From: Macrolepiota albuminosa
Lineage: Eukaryota; Basidiomycota; Agaricomycetes; Agaricales; Agaricaceae
Assembly (NCBI GenBank): GCA_027475525.1
Contig: JAMWFC010000010.1
Location: 62,001 to 126,000 of the forward strand
DNA: 64,000 bases
Direction of reading: 5' to 3'
Numbering within the stretch: the first letter of the stretch is position 1; each line of letters begins with the position of its first letter. This document shows, piece by piece, positions 6,808-17,302 of the stretch. The notes beneath the pieces are model-generated. The model did no database searches, was not told the DNA's origin, and saw only the letters and a list, made by a program, of their open reading frames with translations. The position numbers were made by a program, and so were the translations under genes.

Positions 6808-8040
6808 TAAGTCACGTGCTTTAACGCTTGCAAGTTTGTAAAATAGATATATAATGGATACGTCGACCACCACGTACTACTCATCCTGCAAGATCATCTA
6901 TAACATACTGCGCGTCGATGGTGAGTTCCTCGAGAGCTGGACGATGGATGAGGCTGAAGAAACACGTCACGAATCCGCAAACGTACGAGTTTGGTGCGAA
7001 GAATACAGACATGGTTCGGAGGTTGAGTTATGCAGCTGGTCCCGGCCTGAGTCCTCGCACGTTCGACTCGTGCAGGAACTCGTTTCCTCTTCCCTAGTCC
7101 CATTTGTACCTCACTTTCACTTCCACGTTAGACGACGCCCTCGATAACAGGCTCACAGTAGGCCGGCTCAAGACTGACGCAGGTGCGTGGACGTGCACCA
7201 ATGCTGTGATCTCACCAGCATCAACACTCGTGCGTCTGCCTGTGTGCTCACGGCAGTCCGAGCTGCTGAGGACACTGATAGTGTACTCTTACGGAGGCTT
7301 CCTTGTCGACGTCTGTCGTGTTGGTGGAGAGCTCTGAGCTTCCAGATACCTGCGTTCAATCTCCATGCCCGCAAACAATCCTGTACCCGCCACCTCTGTC
7401 CCTCTCTACATCCCTCAAATTCCTCTCTGTCCTTGTCGTCCACTACTTCTTTTTCCTCCCACTGCTCGTCTCAGCGCCTCGTAAAACGCAGGACTCGACT
7501 CCACGACCGAAGCAAGCCACCACCACCACCAAACAGCCCCTTTATACAATCAAACAATCGTGTCCCACTCGTGCTTGACCTCCGGCATCCCAACAATCCT
7601 GTATTACTCCTGCCACGTTCTGGCGTCTTGGGCTCATCCGCGACATACCGTGGGTTATTAATTGTGCGTACCCATGTCTCAAACTCGTTGACGCTCGAGC
7701 CTCTCTTGTTGGACGACTGCCGCCGGAGTATCTCGTCTGTGACACGGGCTGGGCAGGGAAGGGGTGTGAATCTGAGATGGCGTGTGCAGGGGGTATATAA
7801 TATGTCTGCGGAGCGTCAGGGAGCGGTTTCACTGCATTATTCGTTTGCACATTCGGTACTCCATGTCCATAATCTAAGTTAGTTGTCAATAAACCTCGTT
7901 ACAAAACCAAAACAGACACTCGCCGTCGTCATGCAACACCTGCAGTGCGGATTTATCCCAAAGAAGTCCATTGCTTGTTACTGCATGAGAGCAATTCAGG
8001 GTCAGAGCTCTGCCCACTTCAGGCTACCTGACTGTGCATT
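6808..8040. other. GC-rich stretch without a recognisable gene
   Basis: Several ORFs of 60-230 codons overlap on both strands here, but none shows a domain, an initiator context followed by splice-compatible structure, or similarity to anything I recognise. Pyrimidine-rich tracts dominate. It may be decayed coding DNA of the same origin as the CSN3 relic next to it. Confidence 0.3.
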
Positions 8041-8337
8041 GTAGATAGGCTTACAACGTCATTGATGAATACATATACCTGAGTAGCTAGCCAACAATAT
8101 GTAATGACTTGCTAATACTACTGTATTTTCTCTTGAGTACAGATAGCACTTACTTTGTGACAAGTGAGTGAGAGTAAAAAGGACATATTAGAAACCTCAA
8201 GACATATATGAGCCTGTTAGCATTATTCAGCAAAAATAATAATATAACTTGAATTGTCAACATCTATTACTAGTTTAATAGCTGAGTTTTTAAACAGTAG
8301 AGTATATCAATTGTGACTAGTTTACTATTAATGCATT
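8041..8337. other. AT-rich 3' flank of the recombinase/RecQ gene
   Basis: Composition falls sharply to AT-rich near 8040, about 300 bp before the stop codon of the minus-strand gene. No coding signal is seen. The change may mark the end of the inserted element. Confidence 0.35.
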
Positions 8338-11300
8338 TCACAAGTTAAAAACTCCCTGTTCATCAATCTTCTCTGCATACCACATAAATACAGCAACCAT
8401 ATTAGTTGCATGACCTGGGACACTTCTGTTTGTTAACCAATTACCATATACCTTGAGTGTTTCCCAGTCTAGTCCAAAGTTGTTGCTTGCTGCTTGTCTA
8501 AGCTCTGGTTGATAGTAGACTCCAAATGCAACAGGCAATATGACATCCTTATGCGTACAGCTAGCTCCTCCTCTTTTGATTTCTGCATGCACTGTATCAT
8601 CCAGCTGAGGAACGTGACAGAAGAAACAGATAGCTGGTTTAGATCTGGGTGGATAACGAAGAGTGTTTTGCCATTGAAGATATTTGGTGATGTTCATATC
8701 TTGAAGTTCTTGTTCTAAAAATTGACAAGCAATAATGTAATGCTTGTCGCACTCTTTGCCAAATATAAAGCAGAGTGCACAAACAGAAGAGAACTTGTCC
8801 AGCATTTGAAGGAAATGTTGAATATAGACAATTTGATCAGCAGTGCGATTGACTCTGCTTTTTTTTGCTGAAATTGCTTGCTGGGCAAATTGTGAAAAGA
8901 CATCATCACTTTTACGTTTCAATAATCTGCAAAAATCAGCAAAACATATACTAGCAATGATGATGATAAAACTTACCCAGCTGAAGCATTATTAATTGTT
9001 TGAGAATAAATAGAAGGTGGAGTTTGTACTGGAGAATGATTTTCTTTTGACTGGCACCGTGAGCAACAAAGTGTGTTGCGATTTTTAGTGCAATAAATGC
9101 CATGGCCATCCATAAAAGAAGTGATAGAATATCTAACACATTCTTTGGAATCAAAGATCATGGTCCACATAGCGAGTTCTCCTTTAGGATCGAAGTTTGC
9201 AGTAGCTTGAGGAGGCAATCCACGTGTGCGAGGAAAGAGAAGACACTTTGTTGGTTGACCATCTCTACCACCACGACCAACTTCTTGAACATATGTAACC
9301 ATATGATGAGGTGTACCAGCATGGACAACTAGACGAACATGTGGATAGTCATTGCCAGCACTAAAAGCATTGGTGCAAACCATGACTTGATGAACACCTT
9401 CTATCCAATGTTTATATGCAGTTTGGCGATCTGAATCATTGAGGTCTCCATGATAAAAGTCACAGCCTAGTGCCTGAGCAATAGGCCATCCTTCAACATC
9501 TTTGAGTGATATAAAAACCAATGCACGCTCTTGTTGTTTGAAAGTTGTCATTTCTTGTTTTATATATTGGACAACTTGATTGCAACGCTCGTCATGATTT
9601 TTGATTGGCTTTTGAAAGAGGTATTGCAGCTCTGGACGGTCTGTAGCCATTGAAATAATCTTGTGTGATGATATAAATCCAAATTGGCTGCATAGCATAT
9701 CACGACATTGAGGTGGGACAGTTGCAGACAGTAGAACAAGCTGGAATGGAAGAGTGCGAATTTCATGAATGTAGTTGAGCGATGATCGAAAGTGATTGTC
9801 GATTAACGGATAATGTGCTTCATCAAAAATTAAGCGCTGAACTGTTTGTTTAGAGTTGATAATTTCTAGTGTTTGGCGCCAAGAATCCTGGCGCACTCGA
9901 TCTGCAGATACTAGAATCAAGTTGTGCTTTCCAGTAATTTCATGTTGGTTGTGGCCATTATAAAGTTCATATGGAACTTTCATAGCAGTAAGTTTTCGAG
10001 TATAGTCGTTGATCAAGGACTTGAGTGGCAAGACAACAATAGTGATTTTGTTCTTCTCTAGCAATGCAGGAATAATGGCAAGCATTGTTTTTCCTGCTCC
10101 AGTGCGCAAAATTGCACAAACATCTTCTTTACAGCGAAGAACTGCAATGACTGCAAGCTTTTGAGCTGTGCATAACCAGGTTGCATTTGGCTTGTTTAAA
10201 GCTTTTTGCAATCCTTTTAAAGCAAGGTTTTCCAGATCTATAAAGTATTTAATATAAGTAGAACATTCTAAAGTTATTTGCATACCAGAATCCAATATGT
10301 CAGCATCTTGAGAAGAAGTAATATCTAGATCTATTATAATATAAAAAGATTAATGCTAATAATAAATTGCTGGATAATTAACATACTGAAATCCATCAAA
10401 GGTTCTTGCTGAGAAGAAAGCATAGCATTTTTATTCAGAGATGATGCTTAATTTATTGTTAATATATATTTGATATTTTAAAATTATAAGCTCACCAGAT
10501 TCCAAAGATAAAACTTGTTGAGAAGAAGAAGTTGTAGGCTCTGCAAAAAAACTTTAATACTGCTTGAATATTCTATATATATTACATACCAGCCACAAAA
10601 GATTGAATCATATGTTTTTTAAAATAAGAAGATAAAATCTCTTTGACAGAAGAATCTATAGTTATAAATTAATATAAAAGGAACTTTCAGATATTATTTA
10701 TTGCTCACCAATAGCAGCATTAATTGCAGGCTCCAAAGATTCCATTAGCTTTGGTACAAGGGCAGATATAACTTTATCTGCTATCAGTTCTGGTGTTTTG
10801 TGCAGAGGTGTGTTTAACTTGATCAACTCTTGTTTAACAAGGTCATCAAAATGAACTGATTTGGCTTGGAAATATGGAAGACCAAGGCCTCCTGGAACAG
10901 CTCTAGTTGCTATTTGCCATTGAGTGCTAGCATGAAGATAGAGAGGCAACACATCTTCTCCAACTCCTGATAGTGCATCAGCACTAAGACCATAAACACA
11001 ATTTTCTGTGCGCCGACTATGTGTAGCTTGTAATGCTTCCACAGTTTCTTCTTCATCAGTTTCAATAAGGCTTTCCAAAGTTGAACATGTTTTACGCCGG
11101 AATGCAATGCTGATTTGTCGCCATGATTGAATAGTAAGATCGGCATGAAGTGATTGTGCAGTTCGAATGCGCATGAGATTAGAGATGTCTGTTGTTTCAA
11201 AGAGTTGGCCATTATTAATGAATAGATGATCGCGATACAAGTCCCAAATTTTTGGTTGCTTGTGATAGCAAATAAATGCTGCGAGTTGTGCAAATGGACG

Positions 11301-13824
11301 TGCAATAGCAAGATCTTGAATAATAAGATCAGATGTGATAGCATCCAAAGAATGAGGGATAAGCTTTTCAATGCCAGTCATAGCAGTTCCTTTATGATAT
11401 GTAACAAGCATAGCAATATGCTTTCCAAAGGCCACAAGATTTCGATGAGAGCTGGTTGGGATGTTTTTGTATGTCATTGCTGTAAGCTCAGTACCACGTG
11501 CAGGAGATCCTCCAAGCATCTCTGCACGCAAGAGCAACAATCCATGAAACTATGCATAGTCATAAAGCCAATTGCGAAATGCAATAGTATTCCAGAGAGG
11601 TTGACCATCAAGGCCATAAGAAGCAATAAATCGAGCATTGAGTTCTTTGTTACTAAGAACAGCATGCATAAGCTGATCTTGATTGGCAGAGAAAGGATTT
11701 CGAGGATCTGTGATAAAAGAGTAGCCCACAGTGCCATTGCTAAGATCATCTGCAATAGCATCATATAAGAAATGCAAATGCTGTCCACAAAGAATCTTTT
11801 CTTCAAAGATCTGAATAATATCCACTTCTAGTTTGACAAACATAGCTTTGATGTTATCAAATTCAATGCGATTTCCTTTGTATGCCATGGTTTGAAAATG
11901 AATTTGATCTAGCCACCAAATAGCAGGCAAAGCCATTGTAGATTGAGCGACAGTACTGGCACGATGCTGAAGAGATCGAAGAGAGTTGAATGTGGAGTCA
12001 TGTTTTTCTGTAAACCATGAACATAGTTGTTCACAATGCTGTTCATAGGTGGAATTGGATTTGAGTGTTTTGAGACGATGCATTTCTATCATGAAGGTGA
12101 ACCGCATGCAATATTCATAATGTGCGATTGGTCCTGTGATATATTTTGGCTCTTTGAAAGAACCATCATTTTGCAGCATCATAAGTGCCAAACAATTGAT
12201 TGTTGGATCGGAAGATGGTGAAGTATTGGACCAGTACCAGGTATGAGTCCAAAGAGATGTAAGAAGATGGAGTATGCGCATTGATATTTGTTTGATGGGC
12301 TCTTTATTAAGGCTATTTTGCAGTTTAAGCAAGCGATTGTTTTGATGATCTGTAAAATCATAGACCAACAAGCTGCTTTGCCGAAGAAGCATAGCAAGAA
12401 GTCGAATGATACATGATGCATAAGCTCTGATTTGAACTTTATGATCTTGAAACTGTTTAAAGGGCTTGTTGCTTATTCCACTAGATTATTAAATTAATAT
12501 AGATAGAATGTTCAAATATTATTAACATACTGTTTAGCTGGATCAGGTGAAACTAATCTTTGAAGAACTAATTCTGGAACTTTGGCAAAAAGCTGTTCAC
12601 CATCATCATATAGTTGGTATACTGCTTCTGCCAAGCCAGGAAATTCATTTTTTTGAGGCATAGATGCAAGTCCAATAAGAGAAATTATAGAATTTCCCTT
12701 TAAAAGTTGGAGCCAGCCAGTTGATTGAAGAAATGGGCTGATAAGACGTGGATCAAGTCGTTGACCAAGAGGATTTGGATAGACTAGCTGCTGTCTATTA
12801 TGCAAATCTTTGATGATAAAATCTGGTGTAACGGTAGCAGGTGCAGGTGGAAGGTCGATGCGAAAAAAGGATTTATGATCACTGTGATTAAGCTGTTGAG
12901 CTTTGACAGATTGCCAATTTTTTGGCATTAACAAATCAGAGTGTATTTGAGAATGATGTTGTTTCATAGAAGCCAATGATAGATAGATTTTGTCACATTG
13001 AGAACAGAGCAAGGCATCATAGATAGTAAGGCCTTGATAAAAAGGCTTGAGTCCAGGATCCAAATTAGGCAGATCATCCAGTAAGCCATCAATTTCTAGA
13101 AAGACTTCTAGAAGGTTTTCCCAGCAATAATTGGACTTTAAAAGAGGATGTTGATTATAGATGTGGGTTTTGATGTGGATGGGTCGAATGGCAATATGAC
13201 ATTCTAGACATATCAGGCAGCATAATTGTTTGTTATAAACAATGCCAAGAGAGCGAAGATGATTGTATTCCACAAGCTGATCCCAAGTATGACGTTCATT
13301 TTCAGTCTAAAGAAATCAATTAGCTAGTATATAGTAAAGAATAAAAGCTTACTCCTGGATCAATAATGCTACTAGTATCAGAAGAAGATAATAAAACTGG
13401 AGCTGGCAAGTTATATTTCTTTTCAGGATAAAGACCAATTAGCTATAGTATAATAAAATGAGTAAAAGCTTACTAAGTCGGAATTAATGACATTGCTATT
13501 TTCAGATGAATTTAATAAAGCTGGAGCTGGCAAGCTATATTTCTTTTGATTTTGATTTTCAAGATTGTCTACAATCCATGCACATTTAGAATCATGAGCA
13601 TGTTTTTGCAATCCAGTAATGGTTCTGAAAGTATGCCCAGCTGGAACTGTTGAGCATTTGCATAGAAAGTTATTAGTTGTTGGATTTCGAGTTAGTGTAA
13701 CCTTCATATTAGAATATTGAATATCACAAGTTGGTTTACAACTTTGAATATGAATGTCACGTTGAGATTTAGTTTGGAATGTTGCTGAGCAATAGCGACA
13801 AGTAAAGAGAGATTTTGTAGCCAT
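8338..13824 (-). CDS. C2H2/OrsD zinc finger - tyrosine-recombinase-like - RecQ helicase protein
   Basis: Ten exons (13824-13474, 13418-13353, 13306-12531, 12480-10709, 10655-10590, 10540-10496, 10446-10387, 10330-10286, 10237-8977, 8926-8338) join in one frame of 1677 codons. Domains in order: two C2H2-like fingers (residues about 8-100); an OrsD/DUF3505-type zinc finger region (about 150-210, with CCLICLEC and a second finger CSQCDKIYLSLASMKQHHSQ); a helical region to about 705; a domain with R726, K761, R852, H885 and Y894 in tyrosine-recombinase order; a linker made of tiny exons; a RecQ-type helicase (TGAGKT with K1110, DEAH at 1199, a GRGGRDG motif VI) and a Cys/His-rich tail. OrsD plus RecQ is a known arrangement in Agaricomycetes, related in concept to telomere-linked helicases. 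An in-frame TAG at 11552-11550 (codon 708) interrupts it. A start at 13890 would add 22 residues. Confidence 0.85.
11550..11552 (-). other. In-frame TAG codon inside the recombinase/RecQ gene
   Basis: The frame runs WLYDYA, then TAG, then FHGLLLLRAEML, so the reading continues unchanged after the stop. No GT...AG intron removes it. It falls 18 codons before the first recombinase-like arginine (R726), separating the zinc-finger half from the recombinase/helicase half. It is the only lesion over 5 kb of exons. It could be a recent nonsense mutation, a readthrough site or a sequencing error. Confidence 0.85.
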
Positions 13825-14080: not shown

Positions 14081-14990
14081 ATTTAAGCTTATTTAATCTA
14101 GCTAGCAAAATTAAAAAACAAGAATGTGATTCAATCTTGCAGACAGCTTGGTCATAGCTTTAATCAAGCTAAGCTCACAAAGAAATTAAATCAAGCTTGC
14201 AAATAGTTTAGCTAAAATGATAGAGTTGAAATTTTCATTGTAGCTTTGCCACAAACTTGGCATAGCCCAGCTGAACCACTTGAATATTTAAGCAGCTTGG
14301 CTAAAAGCTTGGCTTAGCTAAGGTGCAATATTTGAATTTCTAAATAGCTTTGATAAAAAGTTGGCCAAGCTGAAATATTTGATTTTTAAATAGCTTTGCC
14401 AACAATAATAACAGTAGCTATATTCTAGCTACTTTTTAGATATAGCTTCATTAAAAGCTTGGTCTGGCCAAGCTGAAATACTTAATTTTTAAACAGCTTG
14501 GCCAACAATAATAAGATTGAATGTATTCTAGCTATATTTTGAATATAGCTTGGCTAAAAGCTTGGCCTGGCCAAGCTGAAACACTTGAATGTCTAAATAG
14601 CTTGGCTATAAGCTTGGCTGAAATAATAAATTTGGATGTATTCAAGTTATATTTTGAATATAGCTTGGCTAAAAGCTTGGCCTGGCCAAGCTACAATCTT
14701 TCAATGTCTAAGCAGCTTGGCCAAAAGCTTGGCCTGACCAAGCTAAAATACTTGAATATCTAAATAGCTTGGCCAAAAGCTTGGCCTGGCCAAGCTAAAA
14801 TACTTGAATTTCTAAGCAGCTTGGCTATAAGCTTGGCTGAAATAATAAAATTGGGTGTATTCTAGCTATATTTTGAATATAGCTTGGCTAAAAGCTTGGC
14901 CTGGCAAAGCTGAAAGACTTAAATTTCTCAATAGCTTGGCCAAAAGCTTGGCCAAATGGAAGAAAAATCAAATAAGCAGCTTGGCCAGCT
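14080..14990. repeat. Array of AGCTTGGCC palindromes upstream of the recombinase/RecQ gene
   Basis: The core AGCTTGGCCTGGCCAAGCT is a 9-bp inverted repeat around one base. Clear copies lie at 14559-14577, 14674-14692, 14727-14743 (one change), 14778-14796 and 14893-14911 (one change), each preceded by AGCTTGGC(C/T)AAA. Longer units of roughly 50-115 bp also share a TATTCTAGCTATATTTTGAATATAGCTTGG-type segment, itself partly palindromic. Copies become more diverged toward 14080. The array sits directly 5' of the gene and ends where the gypsy LTR remnant begins. It resembles a subterminal binding-site array; no spacer pattern suggests CRISPR. Confidence 0.8.
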
Positions 14991-15030
14991 TTGCCAAATA
15001 TGACCCATATTTGACTCAAGTATTACACTA

Positions 15031-15087
15031 GGATCTCCCTCTGCCAGCTGTGTGACTGAGCCACAGCCTCTAGAGGTCGCCCTTACA
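15031..15087 (+). repeat. Remnant of the 5' LTR of a Ty3/gypsy element
   Basis: The 57 bp from GGATCTCCCTCTGCC to CCCTTACA are identical or nearly so to the last part of the 3' LTR (ending 21159). The first 320 bp or more of the LTR are missing, so the element is truncated at its 5' end and lacks the promoter on that side. Confidence 0.8.
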
Positions 15088-15088
15088 G

Positions 15089-15242
15089 CAGAACAAGTCT
15101 CTACATTTCGGTCTGGGAGCCCCCTTCAGCCTGCTTGAGCCCTCTCTTGCCCCTTTAGGTCCCTCCAGAACAAGTCTCTACATTTCGGTCTGGGAGCCCC
15201 CTTCAGCCTGCTTGAGCCCTCTCTTGCCCCTTTAGGTCCCTC
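15089..15242 (+). repeat. 77-bp exact tandem duplication (two units)
   Basis: Unit 15089-15165 is followed by an identical unit 15166-15242, both starting CAGAACAAGTCTCTAC. It lies in the leader between the LTR remnant and gag. It is one of five exact 77-bp duplications in the window and is probably an assembly artefact. Confidence 0.9.
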
Positions 15243-15277
15243 CCCACTGGATTACTCCCTGCCCCTCTGTTGCTTCT

Positions 15278-16411
15278 ATGACCCAACCAGCCCCCTCAGA
15301 CACTCCCCTGGACGCTTCTGCCCCTCAGGATGATGCCTGGGGTCGCTTGCTTGCTCTGGAGACTCAGGTGCAGACCACTCAAGCTTCCCTCACCCTCCAC
15401 ACCACCGAACTTGCTGGATTACATCAGGCCACAGACACTATCTCCCATTCCCTTCAGGCCCTCTTAGAGCGCCTCCCCCTCACTCCTACCCCTCTCCAGG
15501 CACCTCCAGTTAGGGCTGGCACACCCCCAGTCCCTCGCTTTGGGGCTTCCCCCCCAGTTCATGCCAATATTCCTCGCCCAGCACTCCCAGATGCATTCAA
15601 TGGTGACCGAGTGATAGGCGAGCGTTTCCTGCAGTCCTGCATCACCTATATTCAGCTCAGTGGTGAGGCTTTCCCCTCTGACGCTCTCAAAATCGCTTGG
15701 GTTCTCTCTTACATGAAGTCTGGGCGAGCTTTGACATACGTGCTACGAGTCTTTTGACGCCCTGGAGGAGTAGAGAGTTTTGGAAGTTGGGATCAGTTTG
15801 AGAAGGAGTTTCGGACAGAGTTCTTCCCCTTGGACCCTGCTAAAGTGGCAGCCCTCACTCTCCGAGATCCTCATCGATATGGGCAGGGGAAGCGGACCCT
15901 AGATGAGTACATCGACTCCTTCAGAGCTCTTGCTGAACAGGCCTGTTATCCGGATGGTCTTCAGCTCTGTCTTACCTTCTGAGATGGCCTCCTTCCCTCT
16001 CTCATGGATCGGATCAACAGCATGGCTGAGGGACGACCTGATGACACGAGTATCAAGACCTGGTATCAGGTAGCACGTGATCAGTGGCAGCTCATGGAGT
16101 TACGACGTGAGCTCCACCGTGGAACCGCCCCTCGCTCCACCCCACAGGCATCTTTTTCTGCTCGTCATCCCATCCAGCCCTCCCTTCCATTTCATGCTCC
16201 ACCCCCAGCTCAGGTATCTGCAGCACGTCCTCTTCCTTTTGGAGTACCTATGGATGTTGATGCCTCTCGTCAATGTTCCTCCCTTCCTCTTCTCTGCTGT
16301 CGCTGTGGAAAGCCTGGTCACTTCGCTCGGTATTGTCCCCAGGGGTTAGAGGTGCACTATCTCTCAGCTTTAGAGCAGGAGGAGCTCCTTCTCCAGCTCC
16401 TTGCTGCCTGA
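15278..16411 (+). pseudogene. gag: Ty3/gypsy gag, decayed
   Basis: The frame opens with MTQPAPSDTPLDASAP and passes through a capsid-like region containing WVLSYMKSGRALTYVLRVF, LDEYIDSFRALAEQA and ARDQWQLMELRREL, then ends with a CCHC zinc knuckle CRCGKPGHFARYC near 16300-16340 that binds RNA in retroelement nucleocapsids. TGA stops interrupt it at 15755-15757 and 15979-15981, without change of frame, and the 3' end is another TGA at 16409-16411. In related elements these positions usually carry Arg, so CGA to TGA change is likely. A poorly conserved Gag-Pol junction follows before the protease region at 16552. Confidence 0.85.
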
Positions 16412-17302
16412 GACGTTTGAGGAAACCCCTCCCCAGATGTACAGACTGAAGCAGAACCCTTGGAGGAGTCCTCGGGTCCTGTGGAAGCTGTAGCAGAACC
16501 ATCAGATGGGTCCTTTGGTTCTGCAGGGGAGGGTTTTCAATAGAGCGATGGATGAGTTGTACGCCTCCGCCGCCTGGTGCTAATCAGTTTACATGTCAAT
16601 CAGTAGAGTCTTCTAATGTATTGCTCCCTGTTCCTGATTCTCTGACTGAAACTGTAAGCACCCCCTCCGACATACAAAATACCCCCTTGGTCCAAGCCTC
16701 AGCTAAGACTTCTTCTCCTCCTTCTCCTGTCCGACGACCACGTGTCCCAGCTTGGGAACGACGCCTTCCCCGTTGCTATGTTGTTGCTTCTACTCCCTCT
16801 CCCAACTCTCTGCGTCTGAATGTGGAGATTGAGACAACTGACACTCAGCAGACTCGAAGCGTCATAGCTCTCTTGGACAGTGGCGCTACTGGACTCTTCC
16901 TAGACACCCATTATGTGGAACAACACCGGCTCACTACCCGTCCCCTCTCTCACCCTATTCTAGTCTATAACATTGATGGTACGCTCAATGAAGCTGGATC
17001 CATCCGCTCAGTGGTGGATTTAGTCCTTCATTATCAGACTCATTCTGAGCGTGCAGTCTTTGCAGTTACCAGCCTAGGAAAGCAGGACATGATACTTGGG
17101 TTCTCCTGGCTGCGTGATCACAATCCTGAGATTGACTGGGCCAAGGGTAAGGTGAGCATGAGCCGCTGCCCTCGACAGTGTTCCACATGTGCCAAGGAAG
17201 TTAGAGAGGAGCGCAGAGAGTCAGTCCGTGAGCGTGCTGCTATCCGGGCTTGCTGAGTTGGACACCTCCCCTTTGCAGACCTCGACCTACTGGATCCTCC
17301 TC

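Follow-up and report, generated by a model that had tools for sequence, protein, structure and literature searches.

A tyrosine-recombinase-like domain between OrsD zinc fingers and a RecQ-like helicase in a probable one-gene mobile element of Macrolepiota albuminosa

Subtelomeric RecQ-like genes of fungi have been reported since 1998 (reference in PMC7473861), and the available excerpts of later papers describe such genes near chromosome ends in A. bisporus (PMC7473861), Ganoderma (PMC10817607), U. maydis (PMC7593156), Fusarium (PMC12857005) and Mycosphaerella (PMC4522978). Two further excerpts bring in the OrsD domain, which occurs as DUF3505 with a RecQ-like helicase at Colletotrichum chromosome ends (PMC5576322) and is also described in Ustilago UTASb (PMC10532341). 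Fungal Cryptons are described, in the portion of text available, as having short direct repeats at their termini and encoding a GCR1_C domain (PMC3212892), and an excerpt reports Starships in the basidiomycete Tremella (PMC13066641). The gene considered here lies on the minus strand at positions 8338–13824 of a stretch of 64,000 nucleotides of Macrolepiota albuminosa DNA (contig JAMWFC010000010.1, positions 62,001–126,000), referred to below as the window. It is predicted to encode one protein of three parts: OrsD zinc fingers, a tyrosine-recombinase domain that has all of Arg, Lys, Arg, His and Tyr, and, at the C terminus, a RecQ-like helicase. The recombinase domain in the middle region is well supported by predicted fold and conservation. 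Among the matches listed from open-licence full texts, available in excerpt, no description was found of a fungal protein that combines a tyrosine recombinase with RecQ or OrsD.

The gene model was built by hand on short GT-AG introns and comprises ten predicted exons and 1684 codons, one of them an internal stop. P0001 and other close relatives can be aligned along it. The OrsD zinc-finger domain (PF12013; 12941–13240, minus strand), presumably DNA binding, was recognized by Pfam with an E value of 3.1e-7 and 31.3 bits against a cut-off of 26.6. The RecQ-like helicase core (9258–10163, minus strand) contains both DEAD (9702–10163, E 1e-17) and Helicase_C (9258–9569, E 9.2e-15), as do telomere-linked RecQ-like helicases, and P0001 matches the recQ_fam model with an E value of 1.5e-43, under the model's own cut-off. 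No Pfam or PHROGs model passed for the stretch between OrsD and helicase in the window gene. The tyrosine-recombinase-like catalytic domain is placed here (10847–11609, minus strand) on the basis of conservation and the predicted fold of relatives, its extent being approximate and transferred from the model of another copy, L010. The in-frame stop is codon 716 (11550–11552, minus strand); it breaks the window copy and splits its N-terminal half from the catalytic half, and L010 is open at this position.

An earlier note on this stretch had pointed to motifs in the order R...K...R...H...Y. All of the motifs it quoted are present in the minus-strand frame 10698–11549 with the spacings it claimed, and only its residue numbers need correction, being 8 lower than in the present splice model. 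In this model the first catalytic-type Arg is residue 734 in RGTEL (ARGTEL context; 11496–11498), the Lys is residue 769 in TYHKG (11391–11393), the second Arg is residue 860 in SWRQ (11118–11120), the His is residue 893 in THSRR (11019–11021) and the Tyr is residue 902 in CVYG (10992–10994), all on the minus strand. The distance from His to Tyr is 9 residues, equal to that in E. coli XerD as the note had read it, and the interval between the second Arg and the His, which it considered to be about 10 residues longer than usual, is 33 in the window gene compared with 23 in E. coli XerD. Its reading that the box II His is replaced by Gln also holds, the residue at the HxxR position being Gln-857 (11127–11129, minus strand). 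The in-frame stop at codon 716 does not appear in that note.

Relatives were searched for with query residues 400–1000, the 7982 candidates with the most shared words being scored, and at least 101 proteins matched. The best three are Termitomyces proteins (69–74%), and the named source organisms of the relatives are, we assume, Agaricomycetes. A helicase domain is present in 80 of the 101 relatives, a share that is biased because the search admitted only proteins of 0.55–1.75 times the query length. The main alignment consists of L010 and P0001–P0099 (100 rows), the distant P0100 and P0101 being left out, and counts in each column were taken among the rows with a letter there. The five columns hold R in 92/96, K in 100/100, R in 89/96, H in 97/99 and Y in 100/100 rows, so that they are 93–100% conserved; 73 of the 594 columns reach the weakest of the five. 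Seven gapped rows were set aside, and 83 of the 93 complete rows carry all five residues. All five occur in P0074, an intact member from the laboratory strain Coprinopsis cinerea AmutBmut. Only one H-9-Y pair, His-482 and Tyr-491 (L010 numbering), exceeds 90% in both of its columns. The column of the box II His is mostly Asn (57/95 rows), and the residue following the second Arg is His in 85/96 rows. The consensus sequences of the family are RGTEL, Y-x-K, WRHI and AGHSRxTENRxYG, for which XerD has RVSEL, GKG, LRHA and LGHSDLSTTQIY. The alignment therefore contains, in order, the Arg, Lys, Arg, His/Trp and nucleophilic Tyr that characterize the superfamily, and P0100 and P0101, which are 22–23% identical to L010, likewise align R, K, R, H and Y.

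The same set is kept in a second subfamily. Subfamily B comprises 20 further proteins from a search with L016, a distant paralog of the same genome, and in its alignment DEAD was found in 17 and OrsD in 14 of 21 rows, one row being the 245-residue L016 stretch. Subfamilies A and B align end to end as profiles (E 6e-126), the proteins of subfamily A being 16–24% identical to the L016 stretch, which covers the catalytic part. With 4 of the 21 rows set aside, all five residues are present in 17/17 complete rows of subfamily B. A divergent group, subfamily C (L019 1692–5488, L020 3833–4831; contig C111), has a zinc-finger-like N terminus and also shows the R, K, R, H-9-Y pattern. Within the 10 kb read no helicase was noticed, and its single relative in the protein search belongs to a record labelled Salix suchowensis, which may be a fungal contaminant.

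The fold was assessed with two AlphaFold models of relatives from different subfamilies rather than with the window sequence. Tyrosine recombinases and type IB topoisomerases fill the top 17 rows of the structure comparison for one model and the top 40 rows for the other, with Ndc10, SroF and YopR counted among these matches, the latter two being proteins that we take to belong to the same fold group. Identity to the matched structures is 9–14% in the top twenty rows of the top-40 comparison. The predicted models thus have the catalytic-domain fold of the tyrosine recombinase superfamily. The proposal of the earlier note that a recombinase is fused to a helicase is supported by this fold and by the retention of the five residues in both subfamilies; neither an unrelated fold nor loss of the residues in most members, the two outcomes it had named as contrary to its proposal, was found.

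When compared with XerH, XerA, XerD and Cre, the domain shares the predicted catalytic fold, an RxxEL box I, a Lys after a strand and the R...H-9-Y arrangement. It differs from XerD in the longer gap between Arg and His and from Xer and Cre in the box II position, and in contrast to these proteins it is one part of a protein that has zinc fingers and a helicase and is about 1700 residues long. Cryptons resemble the present system in being fungal DNA elements with one recombinase gene, and as here no long terminal repeats are found. Cryptons have terminal direct repeats, whereas here only the right end is located and none are established. GCR1_C was not found in our Pfam scans, within the sensitivity of HMMER, and the word "helicase" is absent from the text of the Crypton paper (PMC3212892), whereas the present protein has a RecQ-like part and OrsD. 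Starships, according to the excerpts available, are likewise fungal elements moved by a tyrosine recombinase, the captain; they are giant and cargo-bearing, whereas the present unit measures about 7 kb and contains one gene, and the captain family DUF3435 gave no match in the Pfam scans, which also missed the recombinase fold here. The Colletotrichum and Ustilago telomere-linked genes, compared by description only, share OrsD and a RecQ-like helicase near chromosome ends, and the excerpts of those reports do not mention a recombinase domain.

The region upstream of the gene contains near-perfect palindromes, AGCTTGGCC-T-GGCCAAGCT, arranged as a tandem array (14231–14953); they are candidate binding sites. 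Allowing at most 1 mismatch, the 19-mer of the array occurs in only five clusters in the 100 Mb assembly, those at the window gene, at gene copy L013, at L115 (directly against a gene-family fragment), and at L113 and L114, where no gene was found within the 6 kb read by comparison with six family proteins. The array is followed by the right end of the putative element (14990–15032), with an inverted repeat AAATATG-ACC-CATATTT; this end recurs at L013, L115 and L113. To the right of the array, the sequence stops at the identical base, TATTACACTAGG, in the window, at L013 and at L115; at L113 the last base differs, L126 stops about 7 bases earlier, and L114 is cut off before this point. The sequence beyond the end is unrelated from site to site, and the window gene lies 1.2 kb inside the end at 15032. 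The right flank in the window belongs to a retrotransposon; in other copies of it (L121 and L125) this flank is preceded by AATACACTTTGG. These copies lack the element end, yet their junction sequence resembles that of the window, as would be expected if joining exploited short similarity. Directly right of the element, 15021–17256 contains a retrotransposon-like gag and protease-like region with more than 30 nearly identical leader copies in the genome.

On the left, 7954–8010 matches C92 outside the element, with a loose alignment extending this likeness to 8043, and 8204–8300, just past the 3' end of the gene, has a 97-base match at L114 that precedes the array there. L114 therefore looks like the same element without the gene. 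A comparison of the left zone with the right end gave a best inverted match of 15/20 at 8269, for which no chance comparison was made. Nine other places in the genome match 7750–7954 up to exactly 7954, the edge of a neighboring repeat. A 1.7 kb unit, L013 7661–9350 and L115 2545–4307, occurs at two positions on the same contig (C86), is 85% identical between its two copies, has the same right end as the window and is perhaps a gene-less element. The window unit is most likely a one-gene element of about 7 kb, with its left end in 8011–8204 and its right end at 15032, and we infer that array, end and gene belong together. The "large" element of the earlier note does not agree with this size, and its proposal that the protein drives a mobile or telomere-associated element stands in part, on the contig-end bias described below, one sharp recurrent end and a gene-less relative.

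Other candidate ends were rejected. The 5' boundary shared by the L012/L013 pair falls approximately where the OrsD exon begins, and L012 has a tandem junction that resembles a rearrangement. Those of subfamily B from L015/L021 (a block of about 7.1 kb) were dropped because L132 and L133 run without a break through the right "end" of L021, of which L134 has a near copy, and because the C94 and C24 copies share more on the left; searches with the joined flanks of L015/L021 gave no uninterrupted empty site. The right end, with its inverted repeat, 15 bases and CTAG, is reminiscent of a Helitron 3' end. A Helitron was rejected for the window element, the base after the end being G at 3/4 sites, no Rep domain being found in the gene's exons and the helicase being RecQ-like; the gene-less copies may be Helitrons.

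The assembly (100 Mb, 129 contigs) contains 24 domain matches, which were grouped into 15 loci for subfamilies A and B together and 2 for subfamily C. Those of A and B lie closer to contig ends than expected by chance (Fisher p 3e-4; 10/15 within 75 kb), also when one locus per contig is taken (p 0.001). As a control, the 21 of 44 conventional recombinase matches that are on contigs of known size show no end bias (p 0.80; 2/21 within 75 kb). Contig ends collect repeats in every assembly, an objection that the control answers only in part, and those of this assembly are not proven telomeres because it has no exact four-fold TTAGGG array; a link to telomeres is presumed. One copy of the gene family, L009, runs into an N stretch at the very start of contig C11. 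Three conventional tyrosine recombinases of the same genome score over the PF00589 cut-off (C67:64263, C53:203421 and C66:412507).

Taken together, we consider it probable that these loci represent a new family of one-gene tyrosine-recombinase elements of about 7 kb, in which the recombinase-RecQ-like helicase protein drives its own mobility. The role as element engine is the best reading of one recurrent end, one gene-less relative and the genomic distribution. By analogy with Crypton or Starship recombinases, the protein would act on its own element, the zinc fingers and the helical part ahead of the catalytic domain holding the element's ends, possibly through the palindrome array. The Tyr would cut single strands in turn via a covalent link, the element would leave, probably as a circle, and it would be joined into new DNA at short stretches resembling its end. 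The helicase might open the ends or move the four-way junction. The window copy is now broken by one stop codon.

Several points weigh against this explanation. The recombinase was undetected by any sequence-based method (Pfam, PHROGs, NCBIfam, phmmer and hhalign), with the NCBIfam scans and the Pfam scans at E 10 run on L010, which is open, and on L016. PF00589 was unmatched by the 21 subfamily B rows (E 1), by L010 and L016 (E 10) and by the window exons (E 1), phmmer on PDB sequences returned unrelated chains (best E 0.28), and hhalign gave no significant match to 81 XerD sequences (best P 0.095), although the alignment was in register at RGTEL and the Lys. Because the PF00589 model does not define the superfamily, the statement that the domain works like a tyrosine recombinase stands. 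The Foldseek E values are at best 0.2 and 1.3 and not significant, the predicted local distance difference test score (pLDDT) is about 40–60 over the His-Tyr stretch in both AlphaFold models, and most alignments of the top-40 comparison end before that stretch. The box II His is absent, and 10 of the 93 complete rows are without one or two of the five residues. Regarding the element, its left end is placed only to a zone, and the left flank in the window does not supply the missing half of the interrupted retrotransposon, so that one has to assume a later rearrangement. The gene at L013 may not form one element with the array end there, which is that of the 1.7 kb unit, and no copy is demonstrated to have moved.

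An alternative that we regard as unlikely is a telomere-linked family of host type, whose recombinase-helicase serves to rearrange or maintain chromosome ends and whose copies spread by subtelomere exchange rather than transposition. The contig-end bias is consistent with such a family. It is opposed by the several copies that sit inside contigs (C6, C86 and C85), by the stops or frameshifts that interrupt many gene copies, and by the occurrence of the array end at unrelated sites, in one case against a gene-family fragment. We consider it quite improbable that the protein is a type IB topoisomerase with a RecQ-like helicase that acts on supercoils or four-way junctions without site-specific recombination, a combination that would serve a similar purpose to the RecQ-topoisomerase III pair, even with type IB topoisomerases among the structural matches. 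A recombinase-derived DNA-binding domain without catalysis, with which the altered box II position could be reconciled, is the least credible, given the five residues kept in both subfamilies and, by contrast, the loss of the Tyr and the second Arg in Crypton-derived animal genes described in the excerpted text (PMC3212892).

If the protein is indeed the engine of its own element, it would be a eukaryotic mobile-element protein of new architecture, in which a tyrosine recombinase is joined to a RecQ-like helicase. Such proteins are annotated as helicases or as hypothetical because the usual domain models miss the recombinase. The earlier passages available tie subtelomeric RecQ-like genes to telomere upkeep without a mechanism of spread. 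A recombinase in the same protein could explain the multiplication of these genes near chromosome ends, and supplies a mechanism of spread that is testable at one Tyr. More tentatively, and with some doubt, the fungal telomere-linked RecQ-like helicases in general may form one superfamily of OrsD-tyrosine recombinase-RecQ mobile elements, some perhaps turned to chromosome-end upkeep. This would take in Ustilago UTAS, the Colletotrichum DUF3505-helicase, and the Fusarium and Magnaporthe TLH genes, and the subtelomeric helicases would then be transposon engines.

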